The notes under the pieces: model-generated
The model's database searches: none
What the model saw: the letters and a program-made list of their open reading frames with translations, nothing else
Told to the model about the DNA's origin: nothing
Made by a program: the position numbers and the translations under genes
Shown here: positions 2,201 to 18,142 of the stretch, one piece after another
How positions within the stretch are numbered: position 1 is the stretch's first letter
Layout of the letters: every line of letters starts with the position of its first letter
Virus record (IMG/VR): IMGVR_UViG_3300047458_000078
Location: 1-22,684 of that record
From: a virus
Reading direction: 5' to 3' (one strand)
Length of the DNA stretch: 22,684 bases

Positions 2201-5200
2201 TTATTTTGGTATGTTTAATAATCTATCTATTTCATCGTATCTACCTCGACCACCTAAATTCTTCTTAACTTTAGCTTCTTTTAATTTATCTGCAAACGTA
2301 GGATTTTCTCCTACCATTTTTAAATATGCCTCTCTTTTAGCTTTTCTAAATACTTTCTGAACCATTTTATAAAACTCTTGATCCTCTACTCTATATCCGT
2401 TACGTCTACGTAGTTGTAATTTTTTAAACTCTGCAAAACCATTTTTAAATGATTTAGAGTCAAATACTTTTTCTAAGTCTTTACGTAAACTACTCATAGA
2501 AATATACTTTTGCATCGTAGATCTTTCTTTAGAGGTAAGACGTAAACCTTTATAAGTTTTAGTTACTTCTGGTAAGTTATAACCCATTTCATATAGAGTT
2601 GTTTTTACAGAATCTCCAGATGTATTAGTAATAGCTACAGGTGATAAAAAGTTAAATGCACGTAGTAATGGTTGACTTCCTGGGGGCTCAAACTTAACAC
2701 CAGATCTATCTTTTGCAAGCATATCATATTTAGGAGGTACTAAAGATTTAAATAAAGCATCACGTTTAATCATCATTTCTAACATATTGTTAGCTTCTTT
2801 TTGATTAGCATCAAGTAAATCACCAATACTACCAATTAAAGCTGAGTATGGTAAACCTGATCTTGCAAATTTACCTCCTAATGTACTACCTTTGTTAAGT
2901 AAACCTTCGGGATCTAACACGGAAGCTAAGTCATCAACACCTGCAAGCATAGATTTATCAACTACAGCTGCAGCTGCCATAAATGTTAAAGTTTCTAATA
3001 GTTCTGTTTTTATATCTTCATCTAAAGCATGTTGATAATTAAACACGTTAGCTGCTGTTGCAATAACTGTGTTAAATGGTTCTATATCTCTGTAAGAAAC
3101 TAAAGTATTACCAATACGCATTGTATGTGGTTTAATACCTTCTTGTCTCCAAAGATCTCTCATCTCTTTATCACGAGGTAAGTCACCATAAATATTACCC
3201 ATTGCAGCTCCTATACTAGCCATAGCTACAATACTACTACCAACAGCTATTCTACCTTCCATCAAAGCTTTTTCAGCTGGTAAATCAGCTGCAGTAAGAC
3301 CATATTTTTCAAGGTTTTGTCCAGCCATTATATCACGATACCTTTTACTAAAAGCTTCTAAAGGTGTGTGTTGAACGGTAAGACGTATAGCATTATAACC
3401 TGTTCTAACAAATGGGAAGAACAACATACCCACAGGGTTGTTTTGTAAAGTTTCAAATGCTTTCATCCAGCCTTCAACATCTCGTGTCATAGTAGCTTCT
3501 CTACCAGCCATCAATGCTGCTTGGTCAGTTACGACCATCATGTTGCCATCACCCATTTTAAAAATTTGATCTGCAAATCTTTGTTCTTGGGCTCTTGCAT
3601 AATCAGTTAATTGATCTAAGGGTATACCTTTTTCTACACCTTCTTGTGCAGCTCTAATACGAGCTGTAAAACGACCTATCACTGTTCTAGCTGCAGCATC
3701 ACCTGCACCCATAGCATTTTGTGAATAACGCATTAAAGGACTTGTATTTAAATTAACAAGTGTGTTTAAACCTCTATACATCATTTTTTCACTAGGTGAA
3801 CCAAATTCCTCAGCATATTTACCTAACCGTTTAAAGTTTTGTAAATCTGTTGGTAAATCAAATCTACCTTGATAAGACATTTTTTTATTGTGTAGACCTT
3901 GTTGCCAGTTATATTTAAATACTTTCCAACTTTCTGAGTATGCTTTACCTATAGCATCTATAGTTGCAGCTGCTACAGCTTGTTGTGCTCTATCAGCTCC
4001 TCTACCAAACTTAGCACCCGCATACATCATAAAGGGTCTTAATACAGTAATTAAATTAGTACCTACTACAGCCCTGATAGGTGTTTTAGGTGAACTAAGT
4101 ATAGAATTATAGTATACAGAGGCTAATTCTCTCAATACTTGTGACGGTATCTTTTGACCATTAACCATACCACCTAAACCTAAACGTGCTTTTAAGTAGT
4201 TTTGCATCATAGATAAAGACGTTACACGACCATCTGTTATAGAATATATTTCAGCTAATTGTTTTGCTTGGCGTTTATTACCATTTTTAATTAGCTCTTT
4301 CATATGTTGTGTAAATGTCTTCTCTTCTTCTATAATCTCTTTTAATTTTTTACCCAATTTTGCTTGGGCTGCCTGTGGAAATATACCTCTACCTTTTTGT
4401 ACTTCTAACGCATTACCTGTCATATATGCAACTTTTTTCATCTCAACCATTGCAATCTGTAAATGGTCAAGGATGTCCATTGCTTGTCTAGTTGCATTAG
4501 CACCTTTAGGTAACATTGTAACACCTGTACCTATATCAGCTGCTTTTTTTAACATGTAGTGTGTAGCTAGTGTTAAAGCATTTTTCATCTGAGGTGTAAT
4601 AGTTATAACCTTGTCACCGTCAAAATCCCAAAATATAAAGTTTTTACGTCCTGCTATATCACTAACATCTAGTTTCTTTGTACCAAGATCTGCGTTTAGA
4701 TACCGTGTCAAAGCCTGTTGACCTTCTGTTCCACCTATACCTATAATGTCAATAATTTCTTGAGCTGCAGCAATTTGCATCTCTCGTATTTCATTAAACG
4801 GCATAGCATTGTCAATCTGCCTAAATGCTTGCTCAGTAATGTTGTCCATGATTTCTGTAGCAAACTTACGTAAACCTGCATCATCTTGGGTCATTCTACG
4901 TGTATGAGCATTAGTAGACATGTTAGTAGAACCTACTGGTCTGCCTTCACGTCTAAAGTTTTTAGTAGACTCATTAACATATTCTACATATGGATTATCA
5001 GTATCAGTTGATTGACGATAATCAGCTCTTTCAGTTTGACTAAATTTTTGAGGGTTAACATCTGGATCAGGTTTACGGAATCTATTAGCTCGTTCCTGTG
5101 CAGCACTCATGCCTTGTTCTGGTAGCCAAGGGTCATTAGCAGATCTACCTTTTCTAAATGCAAGGTCGATGTAATCTTGTAGAGTAACATTTTCAGTAGT

Positions 5201-7108
5201 TGTTCTACCTAACTCTAACTGATTTGCAGGATCCCAGTATATTTGTACTTGATGTTTACGTTTACCTTTACCAGCATATAAACCACCTTGGTGAGTATAT
5301 CCACCAAAACCTTCTTTTTTTAGACGATCTTCAATTATTTGTAATATACTTTCTGCATGTTCATATGAATACATATCATAATCATAGGTAGCAATTTTTC
5401 TACTTACTCTAATAAATTCACCAAGAGTTACATTTTCTCTACCTAACTCTGCTAAAGTATCAGAAACTACTGCAGCATCATCATGTCTTAAAGTACCATC
5501 TGGTAATGTTTGTTCTTTAAGATAATCATCTAACTCTTTATATATAAGGGGACTCATATCTTCATCAAGATCATAAAACTTTACTTCTTGTTTTTGTCTT
5601 GTTTTGTATACTAACGGGTCAGTTAATTCTGCTCTAGTACTTTTAATATTTTTCTTTTTATATTTATTAGCAGTAATTATATCATCTGTGGTGTAAAAAC
5701 CGTACCCAAATAATCCTGGTTTAGCCTCACCGTAGTAAGCATCACCGTCATATGGCCCTTGTAATTTATCTATTTCAGTAGCAGTACCATGATAATATGT
5801 ACCTTTACCACGAGTGTCAGTTATACGATTTTCTGCTTTAATGACACGATCTGCTTCACCTTTACCCGTCACAGGATCTATGTTATCAGGATCACCTTTT
5901 ATAGTAATATCCTTGTTTAACTCTTCCCCCGCAAACAGTCGTTGGGCTTCTTCGTAATCTTCTTCTGTCAGATGTTTTCTTAAATATAAATCTAAATTAT
6001 CTACATCTTCTGAATTTCTAAAACCTTTACCTTCGGCATAAGCTTTGTCAGCTTCTTTTTTAGCATTAATTATGTCATCTGTATCATTCTTACGAATGTA
6101 ATTATACATAACTCTATTACCTTCAGCATTAGCTGTAGTTATAGCTTCATCATAAAAATCTTTAATAACAAAGTTGTCACCTACAAGATCTTTAGATCTA
6201 GGTAAAAGTTTTTGATCTCCTGTGCCTTGTAGTAGTTTTTGTTCTTCTATAAGTTCTTTTGCTTTTTTAGTAGCAGCAAACTTACCTTTTAAAAAACCTA
6301 CTAAAGCATGGCCTACAAGGTTTACACCAGCTCCAGCTGTAACTGATTTGATTCTAGCAGACCAAGGATTATCTTCTTCATTTACAGACAATGCTTCACT
6401 AAATGGAATCATTGGTGCATATTGATCTATAAGGTTTGCTATGTTGCTTTCTTCACTATCATTCATAATAAAGTCAGCCATACCACCTTCACCTGCTATT
6501 TTAGCAAATTTTGCTGCTCTAGGGTTTGTTAAAAATTGTATGGGTTTACTACCAGCTTTAAATCGCTGTGCAGCTCCTGCTAGCTTTGTACCAGCACTCA
6601 ACCCTTTCATAGCACCACTAGCAGCAATACCTGCCTTTGCAGCAGCTCCTGCCTTAGCAGTCAATACAGCTAAAATACCAAACTCTGTCATACCCCGCAT
6701 CAGTTTACCAAGACCTGTTTTTGTCTCAGGTGTAAATTGATCTGGTATATCTATCCAGTTACCTTTTTCGTATCTATCACTAAAAGGATTTTCTTCTTCT
6801 TTTGTACCAAAACCAAACAAACTACCAGCTGCTAGACTAAGAGTGTCACCACTAAGATCTAAGAATGATCCTATACTTTCTGCAGCATCTACAGCACCAC
6901 CTAAAGGCACGGATACAATTTCTTGTAAAGCCCTGCCTGGCCCGTCAGCTATAAATCCTTGGTCTTGTTCTTGTTGTTTTTGTTCAGCTTCAATCGCTTT
7001 GTTGACGTTTCTTTCCTCTAAAAACTCTTTACCTAACTCATTAAGCTCTTCATACTGTTTGTCAGTTGGCATATCATATGAGGAAATTGGTCTTAAACTG
7101 TCAGTCAT
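2201..7108 (-). CDS. 16: Internal virion protein D (gp16-like) with an ADP-ribosyltransferase-like segment
   Basis: 1635 aa; T7 gp16 is 1318 aa. It is the last core protein by position. The T7 N-terminal lytic transglycosylase, with its catalytic Glu, is not recognisable; residues 50 to 270 are instead Ala/Gly-rich and amphipathic with hydrophobic runs, suggesting membrane contact. Residues about 437 to 632 resemble the ADP-ribosyltransferase domain of large phage polyvalent proteins: TYYHGT (His440), KPGLFGYGFYTT (Tyr472) followed by an A-x-x-Y motif, and a C-terminal KHQVQIYWDPANQ segment. The third catalytic residue cannot be assigned. Further on, VYYNSILSSPKTPIRAVVGT is a pattern common to phage DNA-ejection proteins. 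Translation is probably coupled to gp15 through ATGA. Confidence 0.85.
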   Translation of the reverse strand: MTDSLRPISSYDMPTDKQYEELNELGKEFLEERNVNKAIEAEQKQQEQDQGFIADGPGRALQEIVSVPLGGAVDAAESIGSFLDLSGDTLSLAAGSLFGFGTKEEENPFSDRYEKGNWIDIPDQFTPETKTGLGKLMRGMTEFGILAVLTAKAGAAAKAGIAASGAMKGLSAGTKLAGAAQRFKAGSKPIQFLTNPRAAKFAKIAGEGGMADFIMNDSEESNIANLIDQYAPMIPFSEALSVNEEDNPWSARIKSVTAGAGVNLVGHALVGFLKGKFAATKKAKELIEEQKLLQGTGDQKLLPRSKDLVGDNFVIKDFYDEAITTANAEGNRVMYNYIRKNDTDDIINAKKEADKAYAEGKGFRNSEDVDNLDLYLRKHLTEEDYEEAQRLFAGEELNKDITIKGDPDNIDPVTGKGEADRVIKAENRITDTRGKGTYYHGTATEIDKLQGPYDGDAYYGEAKPGLFGYGFYTTDDIITANKYKKKNIKSTRAELTDPLVYKTRQKQEVKFYDLDEDMSPLIYKELDDYLKEQTLPDGTLRHDDAAVVSDTLAELGRENVTLGEFIRVSRKIATYDYDMYSYEHAESILQIIEDRLKKEGFGGYTHQGGLYAGKGKRKHQVQIYWDPANQLELGRTTTENVTLQDYIDLAFRKGRSANDPWLPEQGMSAAQERANRFRKPDPDVNPQKFSQTERADYRQSTDTDNPYVEYVNESTKNFRREGRPVGSTNMSTNAHTRRMTQDDAGLRKFATEIMDNITEQAFRQIDNAMPFNEIREMQIAAAQEIIDIIGIGGTEGQQALTRYLNADLGTKKLDVSDIAGRKNFIFWDFDGDKVITITPQMKNALTLATHYMLKKAADIGTGVTMLPKGANATRQAMDILDHLQIAMVEMKKVAYMTGNALEVQKGRGIFPQAAQAKLGKKLKEIIEEEKTFTQHMKELIKNGNKRQAKQLAEIYSITDGRVTSLSMMQNYLKARLGLGGMVNGQKIPSQVLRELASVYYNSILSSPKTPIRAVVGTNLITVLRPFMMYAGAKFGRGADRAQQAVAAATIDAIGKAYSESWKVFKYNWQQGLHNKKMSYQGRFDLPTDLQNFKRLGKYAEEFGSPSEKMMYRGLNTLVNLNTSPLMRYSQNAMGAGDAAARTVIGRFTARIRAAQEGVEKGIPLDQLTDYARAQEQRFADQIFKMGDGNMMVVTDQAALMAGREATMTRDVEGWMKAFETLQNNPVGMLFFPFVRTGYNAIRLTVQHTPLEAFSKRYRDIMAGQNLEKYGLTAADLPAEKALMEGRIAVGSSIVAMASIGAAMGNIYGDLPRDKEMRDLWRQEGIKPHTMRIGNTLVSYRDIEPFNTVIATAANVFNYQHALDEDIKTELLETLTFMAAAAVVDKSMLAGVDDLASVLDPEGLLNKGSTLGGKFARSGLPYSALIGSIGDLLDANQKEANNMLEMMIKRDALFKSLVPPKYDMLAKDRSGVKFEPPGSQPLLRAFNFLSPVAITNTSGDSVKTTLYEMGYNLPEVTKTYKGLRLTSKERSTMQKYISMSSLRKDLEKVFDSKSFKNGFAEFKKLQLRRRNGYRVEDQEFYKMVQKVFRKAKREAYLKMVGENPTFADKLKEAKVKKNLGGRGRYDEIDRLLNIPK

Positions 7109-15237: not shown

Positions 15238-16407
15238 TTATGAGAAAGCTGATGGCTTTGTAGTTGTTCCTGCGAACAATTCTACACAAGCTGCAGGATT
15301 CACGTAATCTGCTCCCATAGCTAGTCTTCCTAGGATGACATCGCCTTGGTAAACAACAGAAACATCACCAGAAGTTACTTGAACTTGTGGGCCGATTGTT
15401 TCTACTACACCTGCAGCTTCTCTTTGGAAGATAAGTCCGCATGTGTTTGCAAAGTTAGAGGCAGCACCGTAGTTCTGACGAGCTCCGTAGTTGTTGCCTG
15501 TAGCTGTATTAGCTGTTTCGATACCTTCAGATACGAATGAACCTGTATTTCCAGGATCGCTTGTAGCAAGGTCAGTCCCAGCTGATGCACCAGAAGATGG
15601 AGCATACTTAGTACCATACTTAGAGAAGAATGGAGCGTTCATTGACTTGTAGATTTGAATACCTGCAATTTCAATTACACCATTTCCGCTTTGTAAAGAT
15701 GTACCTTGTACGTCTCTGTTAATTAGTCCGTTAGAACCTGCACCTTTTATAAGTGAATAGTACTGACGTGGGTTTAGTACGGCAACCCGACCATCATCAG
15801 AAACTCCTTTTTCATCTAAAGCTGCTGCAGCATCATAAAATGCTGTTACAAGTTTATCATCATCAAGAGCATCGTCAGCGTCAGAACCTGCACCAACTTG
15901 AATTTGTGTACCACCTGGCTCTACAAATCCTGTTAGGGATACTGGAGAAGCCTGTCTAGCACCTTTTGCTATAGCTCTGAAGATAAGTCTATCATACTTT
16001 TGAGCAAGAGCATATCCAATCTTCTTGGAAATTTCTCCTCTCATTTCATAGTGTGCTAGTGTCTCATCTAACTCATATACAAATGCAGAACTGATGAGTA
16101 GATCATCAACTGTAATAGTTTTTTCTGCTATTGGAGGAGTTTTGTCAGAGTTTCCTAATATACTGTTGCCAGGAGTGTGGTATTCCGCACTTGTGCGTCC
16201 AGTATAGATGAACTGCAAACTCTTACCGTTGGTAAGTGTACGCTTCATAACGAGATCTCTAGCTATAGTCTCCCTTTGGAAGCCAGTAAACATCTCGCCC
16301 GAAAATAATTTAAGATATAAATCTCTGTTATTTGTAGCGTTAGTCGCAGTATTTATCCTACCCAGAAAGGTTTGTGAGCTAGGATTATTTGTTGACTGTT
16401 GTGCCAT
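15238..16407 (-). CDS. 10: Major capsid protein, T7 gp10A-like
   Basis: 389 aa, HK97-fold capsid family of T7-like phages (T7 gp10A is about 345 aa). Visible family features: an N-terminal arm leading to LYLKLFSGEMFTGFQRETIA, then ARDLVMKRTLTNGKSLQFIYTG, the E-loop and spine region IAEKTITVDDLLISSAFVYELDETLAHYEMRGEISKK (residues about 95 to 128), and VAVLNPRQYYSLIK near residue 210. The C-terminal part has the QREAAGVVETIGPQVQV segment of the cyanopodovirus version. About 415 copies form the T=7 shell in this family. No ribosome site is seen, and the leader is long and structured. An intrinsic terminator lies 14 bases after the stop. Confidence 0.97.
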   Translation of the reverse strand: MAQQSTNNPSSQTFLGRINTATNATNNRDLYLKLFSGEMFTGFQRETIARDLVMKRTLTNGKSLQFIYTGRTSAEYHTPGNSILGNSDKTPPIAEKTITVDDLLISSAFVYELDETLAHYEMRGEISKKIGYALAQKYDRLIFRAIAKGARQASPVSLTGFVEPGGTQIQVGAGSDADDALDDDKLVTAFYDAAAALDEKGVSDDGRVAVLNPRQYYSLIKGAGSNGLINRDVQGTSLQSGNGVIEIAGIQIYKSMNAPFFSKYGTKYAPSSGASAGTDLATSDPGNTGSFVSEGIETANTATGNNYGARQNYGAASNFANTCGLIFQREAAGVVETIGPQVQVTSGDVSVVYQGDVILGRLAMGADYVNPAACVELFAGTTTKPSAFS

Positions 16408-16467
16408 TATTTTTGTAGGTTATATGTATCGTCTCTAGATCTAGAATTGTTAGAATCTTAAATGTAT
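16408..16467. other. AT-rich segment immediately before the capsid start
   Basis: This holds a perfect 12-base palindrome, TCTAGATCTAGA, at 16434-16445. No Shine-Dalgarno sequence precedes the capsid ATG (the bases before it read CCTACAAAAATA). A phage RNA polymerase promoter could lie here, as the capsid gene of T7 has a strong one, but I cannot recognise the specific sequence. Confidence 0.3.
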
Positions 16468-16588
16468 CAGCTAAGACTCAAGCTGTTTGTAGGTCTATCC
16501 CTACCGTCCAGACGGCAAAAGGTGTCTCCGTAGAGGCTTTTACCAATTAGAGGGGAGTCCGACTCTGAGGTGCTCCCCCCCGTTTCAC
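16468..16588 (-). other. Hairpin-rich leader upstream of the major capsid gene
   Basis: No ORF starts here. On the minus-strand RNA several hairpins can form. GGGGAG/CTCCCC spans 16552-16578. GGTAAAAG (16544-16537) pairs with CTTTTGCC (16521-16514) around an inner CTC-TACG-GAG hairpin; one pair is a G-U that would be a C-A mismatch on the other strand, which favours a minus-strand RNA. CCGT-CTGG-ACGG occupies 16504-16515, GTAGG/CCTAC 16489-16504 and CAGCT/AGCTG 16468-16485. Some of these overlap and compete. There is no T-tract, so this is not a simple intrinsic terminator, and no tRNA cloverleaf fits. It may be a structured leader, a processing site or part of a regulatory RNA. Confidence 0.5.
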
Positions 16589-16642
16589 TTACTTAACAAA
16601 TTTTGTGTAAGTGATGCCACGATAAACGAAAGTTACTTTCAT
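16589..16642 (-). CDS. 17-aa peptide downstream of the glutamine riboswitch
   Basis: ORF of 17 codons plus TAA encoding MKVTFVYRGITYTKFVK. The YRG-x-x-Y-x-K pattern fits the short conserved peptides found after Downstream-peptide RNAs in cyanobacteria and cyanophages. A GGAG ribosome site lies six bases upstream, at the end of the riboswitch. Some cyanobacteria use glutamine riboswitches to control small inhibitors of glutamine synthetase; whether this peptide has a related role is unknown. No transmembrane segment or known domain is visible. Confidence 0.75.
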   Translation of the reverse strand: MKVTFVYRGITYTKFVK

Positions 16643-16710
16643 GGTAATCTCCATCTACCTAAGCCCCGTTCCATGCTTAGGTTTCATGCGTCCCGAAGGA
16701 TGAACGGACG
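16643..16710 (-). ncRNA. Glutamine-II ('Downstream-peptide' type) riboswitch
   Basis: Minus-strand RNA just after psbA. It has a hairpin of CGTCC (16710-16706) with GGACG (16693-16689) around a TTCG-bearing loop. A perfect 7-bp stem, CCTAAGC (16681-16675) with GCTTAGG (16664-16658), has a loop containing GAACGG (16671-16666), which is the exact complement of CCGTTC (16707-16702) and so can form a pseudoknot. The CGTTCA, GGGACGCATGA and GGAACGGGG blocks and the following very short ORF match the Downstream-peptide / glutamine-II motif known from marine cyanobacteria and cyanophages, which binds L-glutamine. A GGAG lies at 16652-16649, six bases before the ATG of the 17-codon ORF. A covariance-model search was not possible here. 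Confidence 0.85.
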
Positions 16711-16716
16711 TGACTA

Positions 16717-17796
16717 TTAGCCTAGTGCAGGTGCTGTAAGAGCTACAGAAGTAGATTCAGCAGACGCTAGGTCTAATGGGAAGTTGTGTGCATTTCTTTC
16801 GTGCATGACTTCCATTCCAAGGTTCTGTCTATTAACAACATCAGCCCATGTAGGAATAACTTTACCATTAGTGTCAACTATTGACTGGTTAAAGTTAAAG
16901 CCATTAAGGTTGAAAGCCATTGTGCAGATTCCCATACTTGTGAGCCATATGCCAACCACGGGCCAAGCACCAAGAAAGAAATGTAAAGCACGAGAATTAT
17001 TGAAAGAAGCATATTGAAATATAAGTCTACCAAAGTAACCGTGTGCAGCTACGATGTTATAAGTCTCGTCTTCTTGACCAAACTTATAGCCGTAGTTCTG
17101 AGATACTTCTTCTGTTGTTTCCTTAAGGATTGAGGAAGTAACCAAACTTCCGTGCATAGCAGCGAAAAGAGCTCCACCGAATACCCCAGCAACACCGAGC
17201 ATATGGAACGGGTGCATAAGGATATTGTGTTCTGCTTGGAATACAAACATGAAGTTAAAAGTACCAGAAATACCAAGAGGCATACCATCACTGAAGCTCC
17301 CCTGTCCAAAAGGATAGACAAGAAATACTGCTAGTGCAGCTGATACTGGAGCTGAGTAAGCTACGCATATCCAAGGTCTCATCCCTAGTCTATAACTAAG
17401 TTCCCATTGGCGTCCCATGTAAGATGCTGCACCGATAAGGAAGTGAAAGATGACAAGTTGGTATGGCCCACCGTTGTAGAGCCATTCGTCAAGGGTTGCT
17501 GCTTCCCAGATTGGGTAGAAGTGCAAGCCGATGGCGTTTGATGACGGGACAACTGCCCCTGAAATAATGTTGTTTCCATAGAGAAGAGAGCCAGAAACTG
17601 GTTCACGAATCCCGTCTATGTCAACAGGAGGTGCAGCGATAAAGGCGATAATAAAACAAGTTGTAGCAGCCAGTAAGCAAGGGATCATAAGTACACCAAA
17701 CCAACCAACATAAATGCGGTTGTCTGTGCTTGTTACCCACTTGCAGAAACTCTGCCAGTTATTGGTTGTTTCTCTTTGTAATGAGATTGCAGCCAT
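16717..17796 (-). CDS. psbA: Photosystem II reaction centre protein D1
   Basis: Full-length D1, 359 aa. All landmark residues are at their usual positions: redox Tyr161 with His190; manganese-cluster ligands Asp170, His332, Glu333, His337, Asp342 and Ala344; P680 ligand His198; iron ligands His215 and His272; and Ser264 at the QB site. Residue 130 is Gln, the low-light (D1:1) form. The 15 residues after Ala344 form the C-terminal extension removed by CtpA. Five transmembrane helices are visible. D1 turns over rapidly in light; the phage copy is expected to replace failing host D1 so that photosynthesis supplies energy to the end of infection. There is no frameshift or intron. The start abuts the stop of the preceding 45-aa gene; a glutamine-type riboswitch starts within a few bases of the stop. 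Confidence 0.99.
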
Positions 17797-17934
17797 TTAA
17801 TTAATTTGTATGTGTGAACATTCCTTCTCCACTTTAGAGAGAAAAAAATTTATAAGATTAAGTTGAGATTGTCTATCCAGACTCTCATCAGTTAAGACCC
17901 CGATCTTAGCAAGCTCGAAGTCAAAACACGACAT
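17797..17934 (-). CDS. Hypothetical protein between hli and psbA, 45 aa
   Basis: The protein begins MSCFDFELAKIGVLTDESLD and continues with RQSQLNLINFFLSKVEKECS; it looks like a small soluble helical protein. I do not recognise its function. The start at 17934 is decided by a strong Shine-Dalgarno sequence, GAGGTG at 17939-17944, with GAAG before the ATG. The frame stays open upstream to an ATG at 18084, which would give 95 aa with a signal-peptide-like N-terminus, but that start lies within hli in another frame and has no ribosome site. The stop (TAA) directly abuts the psbA ATG, which has no ribosome site of its own, so translation of this ORF may feed ribosomes into psbA. Confidence 0.7.
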   Translation of the reverse strand: MSCFDFELAKIGVLTDESLDRQSQLNLINFFLSKVEKECSHIQIN

Positions 17935-17938
17935 CTTC

Positions 17939-17944
17939 CACCTC
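17939..17944 (-). promoter_or_regulatory. Shine-Dalgarno site deciding the start of the 45-aa gene
   Basis: GAGGTG on the minus strand, four bases before the ATG at 17934, a perfect match to six bases of the anti-Shine-Dalgarno complement. It is one of the clearest ribosome sites in the window and argues for the 45-aa rather than the 95-aa reading of this frame. Confidence 0.7.
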
Positions 17945-17965
17945 GTATGAGAGTCGTAGTATGGA

Positions 17966-18142
17966 TTACCAGATTCCTGGAATGATTTGTCCTGTGAATA
18001 TGTAGGAGCCGAGAGCAGCAACAAAGCCAAGCATGGCAAACCTGCCATTAGTTTCTTCAGCAACGTGCCACTGGTCGTGTTCATGGTTATGGTTCATAGG
18101 TCTTGGGGGTGTTTCGTTTGGAAAAATGTTCTGTGGTGTCAT
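17966..18142 (-). CDS. hli: High-light-inducible protein (Hli), single-helix chlorophyll-binding family
   Basis: 58 aa. The C-terminal half carries the Hli/chlorophyll a/b-binding helix signature: AEETNGRFAMLGFVAALGSY (residues 28 to 47), with the Glu, Asn and Arg that ligate pigment and pair helices, then FTGQIIPGIW at the end. The N-terminus is Pro-rich and has an HNHEHDQWH His/Asp stretch before the helix. Hli proteins sit in the thylakoid membrane and protect photosystem II from excess light by binding chlorophyll and carotenoid, helping D1 repair. Phage copies are thought to support photosynthesis during infection. Cyanopodoviruses such as P-SSP7 also carry hli just before psbA. No clear ribosome site precedes the ATG; an internal ATG at 18097 is an alternative start. 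Confidence 0.93.
   Translation of the reverse strand: MTPQNIFPNETPPRPMNHNHEHDQWHVAEETNGRFAMLGFVAALGSYIFTGQIIPGIW

Follow-up and report, generated by a model that had tools for sequence, protein, structure and literature searches.

A glutamine-II riboswitch with a one-repeat YRG peptide and a candidate leader RNA at the capsid gene of T7-like cyanophages

Among the viruses that kill the most abundant photosynthetic organisms in the ocean are the T7-like cyanophages. In the window analysed here, a 22.7-kb virus record of IMG/VR (22,684 nucleotides), the space between psbA and the major capsid protein gene is occupied by an aptamer, a Shine-Dalgarno (SD) sequence, a 17-codon ORF, a 33-nt hairpin, a 62-nt structured domain and a perfect palindrome, which follow one another in this order on the minus strand, as do all elements of the locus (Table 1). 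This raises the question of what the array senses, and which of its two large neighbours it belongs to. The T7-like cyanophage setting assumed in the initial annotation of this DNA is supported. Immediately upstream of psbA lies a 95-aa ORF (17797-18084, minus strand) with a secreted-looking, signal-peptide-like start and no Pfam match; this position is occupied by an hli gene in P-SSP7.

Published examples of glutamine riboswitches in phages come from T4-like cyanophages and from Melnitz-like methylophages (PMC9602691, PMC9004378), and the element described below is likewise a predicted phage-encoded glutamine aptamer. The published elements are in T4-like cyanophages, or are of the glnA type and lie at a tmRNA gene, whereas here the phage is T7-like, the element is of the Glutamine-II type and its place is the leader of the capsid gene. 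No description of a glutamine switch at the psbA-capsid locus was found in the open-access literature (PubMed Central).

Table 1. Features of the locus (positions in the window, except in the last row, where the records are named)
Feature	Position	Strand	Sequence or content	Evidence
psbA (D1), upstream neighbour	16717..17796	-		Pfam Photo_RC, E 4.2e-87
Glutamine-II riboswitch aptamer (RF01704)	16658..16709	-		cmscan 47.1 bits, E 9.2e-9, gathering score 33
Pseudoknot strands	16707-16702 with 16671-16666	-	CCGTTC with GAACGG	sequence
P1 hairpin	16700-16698 with 16693-16691 (16691..16700)	-	TCC-UUCG-GGA	Rfam alignment
P2 stem and loop	16657..16682; stem 16681-16675 with 16664-16658	-	CCTAAGC with GCTTAGG	
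Predicted SD-sequestering hairpin	16621..16659	-	GGTAGATGGAG-A-TTAC [CATGAAA] GTAA-C-TTTCGTTTATC	fold z = -2.21
Shine-Dalgarno of the peptide ORF	16649..16652	-	GGAG	sequence
Peptide ORF	16642-16589	-	MKVTFVYRGITYTKFVK	17 codons + TAA; single YRGxxY (DUF4278-like) repeat
Leader domain A, type II minihelix	16549..16581	-	GGGGGGGAG-CACCTCAGAGTCGGA-CTCCCCTCT	9/9 stem pairs with compensatory changes
Leader domain B (model R1)	16487..16548	-		R1 65.6 bits, E 1.5e-16
Perfect palindrome before the capsid gene	16434..16445	-	TCTAGATCTAGA	self-complementary to its centre
Major capsid protein gene (T7 gp10A-like)	15238..16407	-		Pfam PF21703, E 4.9e-69
Complete tRNA genes directly abutting domain B	L007 4481-4551; L353 1327-1399; L352 5453-5524		tRNA-Gly (TCC) in L007 and L353; called tRNA-Leu in L352	ARAGORN

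The aptamer and its predicted expression platform

When the whole window was scanned, RF01704 was the sole Rfam family above its cut-off, and the glnA model (RF01739) stayed below its own (13.4 versus 35 bits), in agreement with the Glutamine-II type read from the letters in the initial annotation. The likeness to RF01704, the Downstream-peptide motif, extends from the aptamer, which scores above the curated cut-off, to the short ORF behind it, the products of this motif being typically 17-100 aa long (PMC2864571). At least 120 viral loci were retrieved with a degenerate pattern in which the loop, the C/G pairs of P1 and the pseudoknot core were the only fixed positions. Among 35 distinct phage sequences the covariation score of the aptamer structure is 0.361, compared to 0.113 when shuffled and at most 0.085 when slid; the covariation figures count sequences, not independent events. 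The 7-bp stem CCTAAGC/GCTTAGG noted earlier is borne out by its relatives, since P2, which lay outside the search pattern, shows compensatory changes at all seven pairs in these 35 sequences. P1 is paired in 99.2% of cells, with double changes at two of its four pairs. The complementarity between the loop GAACGG and CCGTTC is likewise present as described, and as five of the six pairs of this pseudoknot (CGUUC/GAACG) are invariant among relatives, its core being fixed by the search pattern, they carry no covariation information. The hairpin CGTCC/GGACG that had been proposed in addition can indeed pair, but part of it is taken from the pseudoknot strand, so that it would compete with the pseudoknot, and the supported consensus P1 is the shorter TCC/GGA. 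Judged by their sequences, riboswitch and peptide are real and conserved, and amount to a phage version of a riboswitch class already known.

Passages in PMC6316151 and PMC6698751 describe type-2 glutamine riboswitches as ON switches (GFP fusion) that are probably translational, and a passage in the latter has an alternative structure probably occluding the ribosome binding site. A candidate for such a structure is the hairpin predicted around the SD of the peptide ORF. In all 40 distinct main-class sequences among the matches listed, the predicted fold pairs the SD within the stem and leaves the start codon in the loop. The 3' arm of the hairpin consists of the ORF's own V/K-Y-R codons (F-V-Y in the window), and this pairing of the SD with the coding sequence, characteristic of the main phage class, is absent in the hosts looked at. 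In 27 sequences 91.6% of the cells pair and the covariation score exceeds that of shuffles (0.151 versus 0.086, 0/500), with double changes at two positions only, each the third base of a Val codon, so that few events are involved. Across peptide classes, changes in the arm beside P2 go with changes in the codon that precedes YRG (GGTATAT/GTA, GGTAAAT or GGTAGAT/GTT, GGTACTN/AAG), and measured against synonymous shuffles the duplex energy shows a modest shift only (mean z -0.60, 88% negative).

The 5' arm of the SD hairpin shares GGT with the 3' strand of P2, and since it begins with this P2-closing triplet, the two helices would compete over 2-3 bp. With the aptamer imposed in folds computed without pseudoknot energies, the probability of an unpaired SD rose to 0.40 in the window (0.04 without it) and to 0.56 in P-SSP2 (0.05 without it). 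By the same calculation the SD is still paired in P-SSP7, P-GSP1 and some others (0.04 to 0.05), so the overlap may not suffice everywhere, and a clean exchange of P2 and SD hairpin in all phages was rejected, clear release being seen only in the window and P-SSP2. As modelled, a translational ON platform for the peptide is a plausible role for the hairpin.

A one-repeat peptide and its constant neighbour

The GGAG followed by a 17-codon ORF was confirmed in the sequence, and the ORF is conserved behind the aptamer: among the matches listed, every one of the 111 aptamer-anchored viral loci with enough sequence behind the aptamer has [YF]RGxxY within 230 nt of it. The viral peptides take two main forms, one of 13-22 aa and one of about 33-40 aa with a charged N-terminal stretch. 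Over 11 codons dN/dS is about 0.29, in a set for which YRG and the second Tyr had served among the selection criteria, yet their Arg and Gly codons vary synonymously. The P-SSP7 ORF (MKVTFVYRGVAYTRVIG) carries no annotation in the P-SSP7 record, and the same applies to several other records.

Behind nearly every host aptamer retrieved lies a DUF4278 protein, usually of 55-58 aa with three repeats and ending in LNYRGVNYTK, and these host proteins match PF14105 (DUF4278) with E 6e-11 and 29-43 bits. The same domain also forms the N-terminus of IF17, the GS inactivating factor (PMC6316151). The phage peptides have the YRGxxY motif in common with picocyanobacterial DUF4278 proteins such as PMM1846, and with the IF17 N-terminus, and share the upstream riboswitch with the DUF4278 proteins; they differ in being 13-40 aa long, with one motif, and in scoring below the Pfam cut-off. 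Relatives of the window peptide reach 16.6-17.4 bits against a PF14105 gathering cut-off of 25.3 (E 0.006-0.01), and the window peptide itself has no Pfam match, PF14105 included, which places it outside formal DUF4278 membership. A Pfam or PHROG identity for the peptide was given up, as it is too short and gave weak matches only. The motif together with the shared riboswitch makes kinship likely, and the initial annotation's peptide with no known function can be redescribed as a likely one-repeat relative of the DUF4278 proteins that hosts keep under riboswitch control and of the IF17 N-terminus (PMC6316151). By virtue of this relationship a role in nitrogen control is likely as well.

RF01704 is found at the same place in 12 of 13 named psbA-containing phage loci, including P-SSP7, P-GSP1, P-SSP2, S-TIP37 and S-RIP2, and in exactly one copy in 16 of the 17 whole records or contigs scanned. 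In IMG/VR loci anchored on the aptamer alone, and among the matches listed, the capsid gene lies within 2 kb downstream in 78 of 79 cases (distance 221-1441, median 310) and psbA within 4 kb upstream in 36 of 56. The constant partner of the switch is the capsid gene, while psbA is an optional neighbour and was ruled out as the partner on these counts; in SS120-1 and S28-C3 the switch stands beside the capsid gene without psbA. The sole aptamer locus without a capsid gene among those listed, L225, was set aside as a different context, with a hairpin behind the peptide. These proportions, and the existence of riboswitch-free leaders, speak against the earlier framing of the locus as a device for readthrough from psbA into the capsid gene, and no terminator was seen at the psbA-capsid locus. 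The other half of that proposal, control of peptide translation, is plausible in view of the covarying SD hairpin and the ON switches of the literature. Compared to RF01704 in hosts, the element is here phage-borne, single-copy and fixed before the major capsid gene, and the ORF behind it mostly has one YRG repeat as against three in the host protein.

The switch is absent from S-B28, DSL-LC07, S-SRP01, S-CBP2 and P60, and S-SBP1 and S-CBP3 keep the YRG peptide with an aptamer that is only degenerate or divergent. The Glutamine-II aptamer is described as restricted to marine picocyanobacteria (PMC6316151), and its absence from two freshwater phages is consistent with this restriction. In Marine virus AG-345-E08, where the Glutamine-II element is absent, a PhotoRC-II RNA (RF01717; L013 1673-1764) lies upstream of psbA.

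The leader of the capsid gene

The surprising part of the locus is a conserved capsid-gene leader RNA that adjoins the switch and is apparently undescribed. It coincides with no annotated feature in the records matched, and neither of its domains gave an Rfam 15 match in the window or in 25 phage loci, true tRNA excepted. All named capsid loci examined (L001-L012, L335-L346) carry it downstream of the peptide position, and it is present also in cyanopodoviruses without riboswitch or psbA. The domain B model R1 matches 24 of 25 cyanopodovirus records with one strong copy each, weakly in P60 and SS120-1, and S-CBP2 apparently has a divergent form (by eye). Among the matches listed, the capsid gene lies within 2 kb of domain B in all 166 places with room for it, part of which were capsid-anchored. 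Domain B was not found in the outgroup, two marine T7-like phages (HTVC200P and S46-C10). One contig, L428, has two copies (5831-5889 and 5006-5061, minus strand), the only such case among those listed.

Domain B is composed of an 8-bp stem with a UACG hairpin, a CCGTC-NN-GACGG inverted repeat and a GTAGG-GATAGA-CCTAC hairpin, with double changes at 11 of 16 pairs and a covariation score of 0.401 versus 0.142 shuffled. Because the inverted repeat overlaps the 3' strand of the stem, the two helices are mutually exclusive. The repeat (16515-16504, minus strand) is centred on TG in the window and on TA, AT, TATA or nothing in relatives. The perfect palindrome further downstream has counterparts in other phages, located 10-97 nt before the capsid start; they vary in sequence, and 74 of 122 distinct leaders contain one of 12 nt or more, compared to about 2.5% of shuffles.

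Domain A exists in two interchangeable forms, type I in 121 and type II in 116 loci among the matches listed. Type I comprises a T-loop, a T-stem and an acceptor-like stem, which together make 11-12 bp and end 1-2 nt before the TTGG; the acceptor pairing amounts to at least five Watson-Crick pairs in 45 of 77 cases, versus about 12 in shuffles. Type II, the form in the window, has a 9-10-bp stem plus CC/GG flanking the conserved CACCTCAGAGTCGGA loop, with the same spacing as type I; all nine outer pairs covary and the score is 0.833 versus 0.314 shuffled. A match to its loop in L449 was dismissed as chance, as the stem is missing. A real tRNA gene takes the domain A position in NATL1A-7 and two contigs. 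At the window's leader ARAGORN made no tRNA call, and type II hairpins are not tRNAs. In L005 (P-SSP7), L011, L318 and L329 the 5' acceptor strand of the tRNA-like minihelix coincides with the final codons and stop of the ORF for the peptide.

These features suggest that domain A is a tRNA-derived or tRNA-mimicking minihelix of about 12 bp, and the geometry common to both types suggests recognition by tRNA-processing enzymes. From this geometry alone we infer that, once cut at the minihelix, the capsid mRNA would begin with domain B. The leader shares with tRNA and tRNA-like RNA-processing signals the ruler of about 12 bp formed by T-stem and acceptor, the T-loop and, in NATL1A-7, a true tRNA-Gly (TCC) at the same spot; it departs from them in that half of the leaders, the window's included, use a non-tRNA hairpin with the conserved loop. 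Covarying and outside Rfam 15, the leader (16581-16487, minus strand, in the window) is a candidate new RNA family.

A joint explanation and its rivals

The aptamer, the covariation of P1 and P2, the conserved peptide, the linkage to the capsid gene and the leader structure were computed here, and the explanation that we regard as reasonably probable joins a glutamine ON switch and a trans-acting DUF4278-type peptide to an independent capsid leader with likely cleavage. A Glutamine-II riboswitch would lie within a late phage transcript. With glutamine absent, the SD would be held in the hairpin with the F-V-Y codons of the ORF, the start codon being in the loop; bound glutamine would lock P2 and the pseudoknot, and P2 would reclaim the GGU at the foot of the hairpin and free the SD. 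The peptide would thus be made at high glutamine. As a stand-alone YRG-repeat peptide of the DUF4278 type it may then have a trans-acting effect on the nitrogen regulation of the host, either mimicking the host DUF4278 proteins controlled by the same switch or competing with them. The cassette would sit directly upstream of an independent and older capsid-gene leader, minihelix first and then domain B. The most likely role of this leader is to mark where the RNA is cut and to provide the capsid mRNA with a structured 5' end. Such cleavage would insulate capsid output from the switch, as the capsid mRNA would have a 5' end of its own. A more far-reaching version is more tentative, and we hold it to be possible but somewhat doubtful: that an undescribed RNA class precedes the capsid gene in nearly all T7-like cyanophages, its minihelix descending from a tRNA gene or mimicking the 12-bp acceptor/T-stem and being cut by host tRNA-processing nucleases exactly before the 62-nt domain, which becomes the capsid-mRNA 5' end, with the glutamine-sensing cassette installed just upstream in marine lineages.

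The riboswitch could instead control capsid expression, with the peptide as a leader peptide acting in cis: glutamine-dependent translation of the short ORF, its 3' end overlapping or adjoining the minihelix, would remodel or block the leader and thereby determine the processing or stability of the capsid mRNA. The capsid gene as the invariant neighbour of the aptamer (78/79 among the matches listed) agrees with this, as does the frequent placement of the tRNA-like 5' acceptor strand in the last codons and stop of the ORF (GAGTA in P-SSP7; AACTGA, AAGTAA or AGGTAA elsewhere); stop codons overlapping the tRNA-like stem in several phages would fit peptide translation regulating the capsid leader, and in the window the last codons and stop fall within a predicted hairpin. 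Such overlap may, however, equal genome compaction, the peptide lies hundreds of nt away in many phages, and S-B28, DSL-LC07, S-SRP01 and P60 have leader and capsid gene without aptamer or peptide. The conservation of the peptide's amino acids and its kinship with host DUF4278 also argue against the cis reading, which we consider unlikely. Less likely still is that the leader works as DNA, as a phage RNA polymerase promoter or a replication or packaging site. It contains two palindromes, one of them perfect and of variable sequence, and domain B starts with TTGG, a published Syn5 promoter containing ATTGGGCACCCGTAA (primer sequence, PMC6395800). Promoters recur, whereas both a pattern scan and R1 gave one strong copy per genome, by which domain B was rejected as a repeated phage promoter, and none of the loci examined has the Syn5 promoter core upstream of its capsid gene. 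The covarying stems, which allow G-U pairs, the UACG/UAAG tetraloops and the replacement of domain A by true tRNAs point to RNA. Finally, the module could be cargo without present function, a captured and reduced host DUF4278 riboswitch-gene unit hitch-hiking with the capsid leader. Its absence from several cyanopodoviruses, the degenerate or divergent aptamers of S-SBP1 and S-CBP3 and a peptide down to one repeat would suit this account, which is nevertheless very improbable given the strong covariation of P2, a peptide in 111 of 111 loci (among the matches listed), a dN/dS of about 0.29 and the co-varying SD hairpin.

Under the joint explanation, a glutamine sensor beside the capsid gene would couple a late phage gene product to the nitrogen status of the host. 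This phage-host nitrogen link has long been discussed and is now testable at one short locus, the model phage P-SSP7 included. As for the leader, it would constitute a new RNA family, one in which tRNA genes would have become elements of an mRNA leader, a look-alike later taking their place.
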